A DNA stretch of 64,000 bases, taken from NCBI GenBank assembly GCA_905233545.1, contig CAJOEV010000010.1, positions 1-64,000 on the forward strand. The letters run 5' to 3'. The stretch is from an uncultured Eubacterium sp. Lineage in GTDB: Bacteria > Bacillota > Clostridia > Oscillospirales > Acutalibacteraceae. The position numbers and the translations under genes were made by a program. A model generated the notes under the pieces. The model ran no database searches. It saw only the letters and a list, made by a program, of their open reading frames with translations, and was not told the DNA's origin. This document shows positions 16,496 through 35,677 of this stretch, one piece after another; position 1 is the first letter of the stretch; each line of letters opens with the position of its first letter.

Positions 16496-16611
16496 AGAAA
16501 TCCCTCCTTAGTTCTTTTACTCAGTATTATGTACTCAAAATTACAAAAAATTCCTTTTTTTATTATTGACTAATTTTAAATATTTATTATTATAGAAAAG
16601 AGGTGACAAAA

Positions 16612-17457
16612 ATGGAACTCTTTTTCATAATTCTTGCAGTGCTTATTGTAATATTTACTTTCCTATACTATCAAAATAACAAAATCGATATAACAAGCTA
16701 CAATATTAAAAGTGATGTCATAAATGATGGTGTAATAGTCGCACATCTCAGCGACCTTCATTCAAAACCGTTTAATAAAGTTTTAGATAAACTAAATGAA
16801 ATTAAGCCCGATATTATCTGTATTACAGGCGATTATATCAACGACCACGCAAGGAAGAAAGATAAAATGCTGTCTTTCGGCAAGGAACTTGTTAAGATTG
16901 CTCCCGTTTACTATATCACGGGAAACCACGAAAGAAGGCTTGAAAGCTTTGAGGAATTAATGCAGGAAATTCGTGAAACAGGCTTCAATGTTCTTCTTGA
17001 TGAAATTGCAGTATCAGAAATTAAAGGAAATGAAATAGACATTCTCGGTCTTGATGAGAATATGGCTGACCATTCCGACTACAGAGCAAGAAAGGCAGGA
17101 ACCTTTGAATACAGGGATATGAAGCCGTATTTTGATGAACTTGATAAGCTAAGCGGTTTTAAAATCGTTTTATCCCACTGCCCCGAAAACTTTGAAGGAC
17201 AAAAGGAAATGAACTATTCTCAATATGATTTTGACATTCAGCTTTCGGGTCACGCCCACGGAGGACAATTTATTCTTCCGTTTATCGGACCAGTTTTTGC
17301 ACCCGGTCAGGGACTGTTTCCAAAATATGCGCGCGGTTCATTCGGAGAAAGACCGAAGCTGATTATTTCACGCGGTCTCGGAAATTCAGAATTCCCGTTC
17401 AGGCTATTTAATCATCCTGAAATTAATGTTATCAACCTAAGCCATAATAATAAATAA
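16612..17457 (+). CDS. Metallophosphoesterase (YkuE-like)
   Basis: N-terminal TM; VAHLSDLHSKPF, GDYIND, GNHERR, LSGHAHGGQF motifs. ATG 16612 preferred over GTG 16603 because AGAGGTG is its SD. Confidence 0.93.
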   Translation: MELFFIILAVLIVIFTFLYYQNNKIDITSYNIKSDVINDGVIVAHLSDLHSKPFNKVLDKLNEIKPDIICITGDYINDHARKKDKMLSFGKELVKIAPVYYITGNHERRLESFEELMQEIRETGFNVLLDEIAVSEIKGNEIDILGLDENMADHSDYRARKAGTFEYRDMKPYFDELDKLSGFKIVLSHCPENFEGQKEMNYSQYDFDIQLSGHAHGGQFILPFIGPVFAPGQGLFPKYARGSFGERPKLIISRGLGNSEFPFRLFNHPEINVINLSHNNK

Positions 17458-17471
17458 TACTGCATTACAAT

Positions 17472-17544
17472 GGAGCGTCGAGGTCGCCGCTCCCTACAAA
17501 TACGCCACAGCGTGAAACGTAGGGAATGGCGACCTCGACATTCC
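17472..17544. repeat. Palindromic intergenic element: two hairpins with complementary loops
   Basis: GGAGCG[TCGAGGTCGC]CGCTCC-CTAC ... GTAG-GGAATG[GCGACCTCGA]CATTCC, with ACGC-CACA-GCGT between, followed by T7 on the + strand. Confidence 0.9.
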
Positions 17545-17557
17545 TTTTTTTGATTTT

Positions 17558-18773
17558 TTACTTTTTAGTTGTAACGGTTTTCTTTGAACTCCACGGAGAA
17601 TAATTCTTTACACCATTGTTATATTTATACCCTCTGATACGAACATAGTATTTTTGCTTTGCCTTTAACTTTTTAACCGCTTTCTTTGTAGATTTATATC
17701 CGCTGATTGTTACTGTTTTATTATATTTACTGAAGCTCTTGCTTTTGGAATACTGAATCTGATAACCGTCTATACCGGAAACGCTCTTCCACTTTGCAAC
17801 AAATGATTTCTTGCCTTTTGTAACTGAACTGAGAGAAGGATTTTTTAGCTTGGCAGTTGTTATTGTGTAATTATAATTACAATTATTGCATTTGTAAAAT
17901 TCAGTTCCGCCTTGTTTAAACGTTGCTTCTTTTATTGAAGCCGTTAATTTATGATTACCTGAAATATATCCATCCTTACATTTTATTACGACATCTAAAA
18001 GTTTTCTATTTCCATATTGATATTGATAACGCCAATTACAACTTGTCTTATCGAATTTGTATAGTTCTTCATCAAGATCTTCTGACTCATAAAACACTCT
18101 TGTTTTAGCCCACTCTGAAACATTAGCGTTATAATTAATTATCTTTATTGAATTATTGTCACCAATCCCAAATAATTCAATCTGTTTAACGCTTTTTGGT
18201 ATAGTTAATTCTTTTAAATTCTGACAATCGTTAAATGCATACCTGCTAATTACTGTTACGGTTTTAAATAAAGTATATTTTTCTGCAGGGGCTGATGCAG
18301 GATACGCATAAACAATTGTTTTGTCCTTGTTATATAATACGCCTTTATCTGAACAATAAAATGACTTATTCTTAGAATTTATTGTAATCTTTTTTAACGA
18401 GGTGCAACCTTTAAAAGCCGGACTAATACTTTTTAAAGTTTCAGGCAAAGATACATATTCAAGATTTTTACATGCATAAAACAAACTTCCGCTGATATCA
18501 GTGATTCCGGATTTGATTATTACTTTTTTAAGAGATGGATATATTTTTTGAAATATGCGTATATATTGGTTCGTCAGCATTGTCATCAATATTTTGATTA
18601 ACAAGTGTACCTTTTCCGCTGAATGTAAGTACATCGGTATTATAGTCATAATAGTGATAAACAGTATCACCAAAACTATAATTACCGCGTATTGCAAAAG
18701 CATTAATTGGTAAAGCACCAATTGTTGTTAAAATCATAATCAATGCAAAAACAATTGATAAAATCTTTTTCAT
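17558..18773 (-). pseudogene. BspA-like LRR + fibronectin type III-like surface protein, reading frame split by an apparent 1-nt insertion
   Basis: Signal peptide ORF (18528-18773, MKKILSIVFALIMILTTIGALPINAFA) and LRR/FN3 ORF (17558-18721) lie in different frames and join cleanly if the A6 run at 18544-18549 were A5. Confidence 0.75.
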
Positions 18774-35651: not shown

Positions 35652-35677
35652 GGGAGGGCACAGAGACCCTCCCCTAC
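35652..35677. repeat. Short GC-rich palindrome between ligA and tyrS
   Basis: GGGAGGG-cacagaga-CCCTCCC followed by CTAC; much GC-richer than surroundings. Confidence 0.8.

Follow-up and report, generated by a model that had tools for sequence, protein, structure and literature searches.

A Paired Palindrome behind a Metallophosphoesterase Gene

The 64,000-nt window analysed here, from an uncultured Eubacterium sp., carries a palindromic element of two hairpins at 17472–17544, which raises the question of whether this DNA is a transcription terminator, a switchable structure, or a copy of a mobile repeat. Our analysis indicates that it is very likely a REPIN made of two inverted REP units with GTAG feet, probably dispersed in the genome by a RAYT transposase.

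The left hairpin, GGAGCG-TCGAGGTCGC-CGCTCC (17472–17493), and the right hairpin, GGAATG-GCGACCTCGA-CATTCC (17523–17544), are 22 nt long each; their loops are identical and inverted, their stems differ at two compensated pairs, and their flanks, CCCTAC and GTAGGG, point inward. The left REP unit (17472–17497) reads GTAG-GGAGCG-GCGACCTCGA-CGCTCC on the minus strand, with its GTAG foot at 17494–17497, while the right REP unit (17519–17544, plus strand) reads GTAG-GGAATG-GCGACCTCGA-CATTCC and represents a second stem subtype. The linker that separates the two inward-facing feet (17498–17518) holds the mini-hairpin ACGC-CACA-GCGT (17502–17513), and a T7 tract (17545–17551, plus strand) lies 3′ of the REPIN. 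The hairpins, their flanks, the mini-hairpin and T7 agree in sequence and position with the original prediction. Upstream is a metallophosphoesterase gene (16603–17457, plus strand; Pfam Metallophos), and a convergent gene (17558–18721, minus strand) has domain matches to leucine-rich repeats and a fibronectin type III domain.

The predicted minimum-energy fold of the region is one long hairpin, and the 91-nt region folds at −50.6 kcal/mol compared with −20.6 ± 2.9 for shuffled sequences (z = −10.5, 0/200). Shuffled versions of the window give an expectation of 0.00 occurrences for the right arm at 3 mismatches or fewer. What had been described as a 10-nt loop is better read as a G.A mismatch, two pairs (CG/CG) and a tetraloop, because the inner pairs are kept across dispersed copies. 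The exact complementarity of the two loops is not an independent fact, since both units are one REP in inverted orientation. Rfam gave only sub-threshold matches for the element, none above the gathering score. Elsewhere in the window, a lone REP of another type, type D (GTAGGGGAGGGTCTCTGTGCCCTCCC), is located at 35652–35677 on the minus strand; type D numbers 22 units in this genome, which also encodes a RAYT of that type.

A Dispersed Family of REP Units

The 91-nt element served as query against the 76 contigs (2.23 Mb) of the genome that contains the window. This search disclosed a second full copy with 80% identity on another contig (C31:7620–7693) and more than a dozen single units, so the REP-type dispersed repeat that had been proposed is indeed present. 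The linker of the C31 copy equals that of the window in length and has a similar mini-hairpin; the copy has no T7 tract, which places the tract outside the repeat. With the unit defined as GTAG followed by the hairpin (type A, GTAGGGAGCGGCGACCYCGACGCTCC) and up to 3 mismatches allowed, 15 units were found in this genome, 53 in G057, 33 in G006, 28 in G008 and 11 in G036. Most other genomes of the genus had zero, and a reversed-pattern control gave zero throughout.

Judged from its sequence, the window element is a REPIN, or BIME, in which two inverted REP units each combine a GTAG foot with an imperfect hairpin. The family has a GT[AG]G foot on a short hairpin, as in the GTAG class of REPs and REPINs. 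Its copies are many, mostly intergenic and retain the hairpin, at a moderate copy number of 15 in this genome and as many as 53 in one of its sister species, and inverted pairs recur as units. The REP half of the "REP/MITE-type" label thus stands, and the MITE half names the wrong class. A MITE of a DDE transposase, which would have terminal inverted repeats like those of a DDE transposon and a target duplication, fits poorly; the repeat searches returned no such element, and single 26-nt units move without partners.

RAYT Transposases

The same genome encodes seven TnpA_REP-like (RAYT) genes, one of them truncated, in accordance with the suggestion to look for a Y1/TnpA_REP transposase; three of them carry exactly the type-A REP. 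The NCBIfam model REP_Tyr_transpos matches an own-genome RAYT with an E value of 1e-18, below its curated cut-off, and the scores of the own-genome RAYTs lie under, or just at, the curated NCBIfam and Pfam cut-offs. The same model matches 58/58 aligned relatives. By both sequence and fold, the best match was 4er8, the experimental structure of E. coli TnpA_REP in complex with a REP hairpin. Alignment to 4er8 revealed the conservation expected of a RAYT in the HUH motif, the catalytic Tyr and the residues contacting GTAG, which are named for E. coli TnpA_REP in PMC6006769. The conserved residues, in L034 numbering, are H82, H84, W128, Q129, D134, H135, R138 and Y149, with their E. coli equivalents assigned through the same alignment.

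At class level, RAYTs were present in 57 of 388 genomes. One RAYT (L231, G000:C10:68841–70658) forms an in-frame fusion with a CCA tRNA nucleotidyltransferase gene, joined at the 3′ end of that gene, in a 605-aa frame whose first part matches Pfam PolyA_pol, PolyA_pol_RNAbd, HD and tRNA_NucTran2_2; long frames resembling it occur in two sister species (L077, G057:C20; L081, G002:C3).

An Inverted REP Pair inside the Transposase Gene

In three of the seven own-genome RAYT genes, the type-A unit occurs twice, in opposite orientation and in frame. Site 1 (REP1), some 42 codons upstream of the HUH motif, encodes the peptide VGSGDPDAP or close to it; site 2 (REP2), directly after that motif, encodes GASGSPLPT or close to it. 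One of these type-A genes, L003, shows homology to the rest from REP1 onward only. Other RAYTs have other REP types at these two places, and the in-gene pair was present in 41 of 43 RAYT reading frames of the genus and order. It was not found in the plasmid RAYT relatives L237 and L238 (Chloroflexota and Bacteroidota).

The two units of a gene resemble each other more than they resemble those of other genes. Their median identity is 93% within a gene versus 70% between genes, and when site 1 was aligned with the reverse complement of site 2, scores averaged 22.6 for sites of one gene, 10.4 after swapping genes and 8.4 in a reversed control. RAYTs with cores up to 64% identical can differ in REP type, each type being matched at both sites. 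Site 1 is an in-frame GTAGGG in nearly all genes, compared with GTA for 25% of Val codons and GGG for 10% of Gly codons elsewhere in the genes. Two different frames are used for site 2, and L100 has site 1 in another frame. The retention of GTAGGG together with the differing frames argues that DNA, not peptide, is conserved at the in-gene REPs. Stem differences between in-gene units were compensated in 21 of 29 cases, and 4 more keep a G-T pair. The RAYT L105 (G030:C73:9300–10900) carries at site 1 a tandem array of five in-frame REP units of 42 nt each; past the gene end lie four further REPs at a spacing of 45 nt.

The REPs could instead be passive insertions tolerated in loops and functionless for the transposase, which is how Quentin et al. 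2018 regard those of TnpA_REP subclass 2.4. The predicted structure suits this idea, as it places REP1 at a beta-turn and REP2 within a disordered loop (pLDDT <50 at residues 94–103), and so does the existence of one-REP and REP-less relatives; among the readable class-level RAYTs, both sites were found in 24 of 28, site 2 only in 3 and neither in 1, and the pair is absent from most outgroup RAYTs of the phylum. Tandem expansions, as in L105 and L090, are tolerated as well. Passive insertion, however, would predict scattered sites, either orientation and decay, whereas the REPs observed occupy two fixed sites, are always inverted, and are matched within a gene while the type varies between genes; they are also kept in different reading frames, with stem differences compensated. 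We consider passive insertion a serious possibility, although a rather doubtful one. A further reading, which we propose tentatively as falling only a little short of probable, is that the RAYT gene carries its own substrate as coding sequence. Inverted REPs in two fixed loops would evolve jointly and match the dispersed REPs, so that enzyme and substrate are linked; a change of type would affect both sites together, and the REP-bounded stretch would occasionally be copied to another place, or lost, with ends precisely at the REP edges.

Links between RAYT Type and Dispersed REPs

In genomes encoding a type-A, type-E or type-D RAYT, REPs of the matching type were more numerous than in the other genomes of the same genus (p = 4e-5, 2e-4 and 8e-4, respectively, with in-gene copies removed and without correction for relatedness). 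Three genomes are exceptions: G008, with its 28 type-A REPs, yielded only a REP-less RAYT relic, and no type-D RAYT was found in G025 and G033, which have 18 type-D REPs.

Possible footprints of activity were observed at REP edges. A 164-nt stretch (L192, G045:C32:468–631) matches part of the RAYT L099 (G045:C32:7658–8131), about 7 kb away, with 100% identity. The copied interior begins exactly past the hairpin of REP1 and stops exactly at the foot of REP2; the second copy resembles what REP-led mobilisation would produce, or may be an error of the assembly. In the RAYT relics L182, L183 and L189, the stretch between the REPs is lost and a double-foot REP, GTAGGG...CCCTAC, is left. We do not assign these three losses to excision by the enzyme, as palindrome slippage without an enzyme accounts for them equally well. 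A candidate split RAYT with a duplicated interior (G007:C16) was rejected, since no sequence is common to its two pieces.

The Small Hairpin as the Conserved Unit

The dispersed type-A copies include the stem variants GGAGCG, GGAATG, GGAGTG, GGTGCG, GGCGCG, GGGGCG and GGAACG, each with a matching partner. Stem cells were paired in 97.1% of cases versus 90.0% after shuffling, and double-change cells numbered 19 versus 2.7 (0/500 shuffles); an unrelated REP type, type E, gave the same picture. The expectation that compensatory change maintains the small hairpins was therefore borne out, and the genomes showed neither a single-copy element nor an absence of covariation. Judged by this covariation across the dispersed copies, the small hairpin is probably the unit that is conserved.

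Full REPINs of the sister species G006, G019, G049 and G057, as well as the C31 copy, join a GGAGCG unit with a GGAATG unit as in the window, and the "compensated stem changes" between the two window hairpins are therefore two REP subtypes. Type-D REPINs likewise bring two stem subtypes together (GGGAGGG with GGGCGGG), repeatedly in G033 and G051. Two hybrid REPINs combine type A with type E (L274, G057:C17:13547–13617; L275, G033:C27:128280–128334). Such pairs can form neither a long hairpin nor kissing loops, which identifies the small hairpin with its foot as the conserved unit.

These data bear on the switchable architecture that the original prediction had singled out, an RNA or DNA element alternating between two hairpins joined by kissing loops and one long hairpin. 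Both folds can be drawn for the window element, the long hairpin being the predicted minimum; the stem changes, however, favour the small hairpins, the hybrids are incompatible with either fold, and the loops of paired in-gene REPs are identical in just 25 of 54 cases and differ in 29. The switch did not withstand these comparisons, and we consider it highly unlikely.

History of the Locus and Transcription Termination

At the orthologous place in 29 relatives, identified through the metallophosphoesterase orthologues, the REPIN is missing. Many of these loci have an ordinary hairpin-plus-T terminator in its place, unrelated in sequence to the REPIN. From this comparison, the REPIN is a lineage-specific arrival at the metallophosphoesterase locus. 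The adjoining T7 makes it a plausible terminator, in keeping with the role suggested earlier, and the REPIN has probably taken over transcription termination of the gene; an automatic terminator scan did not call the window element. That the element is solely a non-mobile terminator of this gene is very improbable: a GC-rich hairpin with T7 does lie directly 3′ of the gene, where many relatives have intrinsic terminators, but those are unrelated in sequence, and as a full account this reading is refuted because copies of the repeat are dispersed in the genome, also within coding sequence and without a T tract.

Proposed Mechanism

We infer a mechanism in which a RAYT, as a Y1 HUH single-strand nuclease (TnpA_REP), would recognise the GTAG foot and the individual small hairpin in single-stranded DNA and would mobilise the dispersed REP units. 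The in-gene REP pair may serve as a master copy that links the enzyme with its substrate. The GTAG feet point inward in dispersed REPINs and outward in in-gene pairs; REPINs are therefore not simple copies of the in-gene pair. At the window locus, the REPIN, beside T7 and in place of the relatives' terminator, would now end metallophosphoesterase transcription.

This arrangement bears on how REPs spread and on how a RAYT stays matched to its REP. With the substrate inside the enzyme gene, the REP type could be read from the protein, and enzyme-substrate switches could be counted on a tree. Synonymous recoding of the in-gene REPs could separate their role as DNA from their role in the protein. 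The arrangement may also explain the large number of GTAGGG-type palindromes that related genomes contain.

Comparison with Known Systems

Published REPs have a GTAG foot and an imperfect hairpin and are dispersed and paired (PMC2817692, PMC8266576), and the window family fits this description. Like the REP/BIME/REPIN and RAYT systems of E. coli and Pseudomonas (PMC2817692, PMC3116915, PMC8266576), it has a 5′ GTAG foot, an imperfect hairpin with a conserved mismatch, dispersed units and inverted pairs, and it occurs as several REP subtypes in one genome that also encodes a Y1 HUH transposase. RAYT genes have been described as always flanked by two inverted REPs (PMC2817692). Unlike the flanked RAYTs of E. 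coli and Pseudomonas, 55 of 64 genes here carry the pair within the coding sequence instead, with no REP of their own type in the flanks searched.

The closest parallel by shared features is TnpA_REP subclass 2.4 (RAYT group 4; Quentin et al. 2018, PMC6006769), which shares frame-keeping REPs inside the gene and double-foot REPs. The internal REPs of that subclass are additional to flanking REPs, generally lie between the HuH and Y motifs and are described as probably neutral (PMC6006769). Here, in contrast, one REP precedes and one follows the HUH motif, at fixed places, inverted and jointly evolving, and usually without flanking REPs. Rickettsia palindromic elements (RPE; PMC3733652) are similar in being palindromic repeats in frame inside protein genes; they differ in having a CGTC tag, unrelated host genes and no dedicated transposase known, whereas the repeats described here have a GTAG tag and reside in the presumed cognate transposase gene.

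In the main texts of open-access articles, we found no report of two inverted REPs at fixed positions around the HUH motif, of their evolving jointly, or of such a pair standing in for flanking REPs. The fixed pairing, the joint evolution, the DNA-level constraint and the copy or excision footprints of the in-gene REPs thus appear to be new. The window element itself is an ordinary REPIN in a little-studied lineage; what appears new is the arrangement of the transposase.
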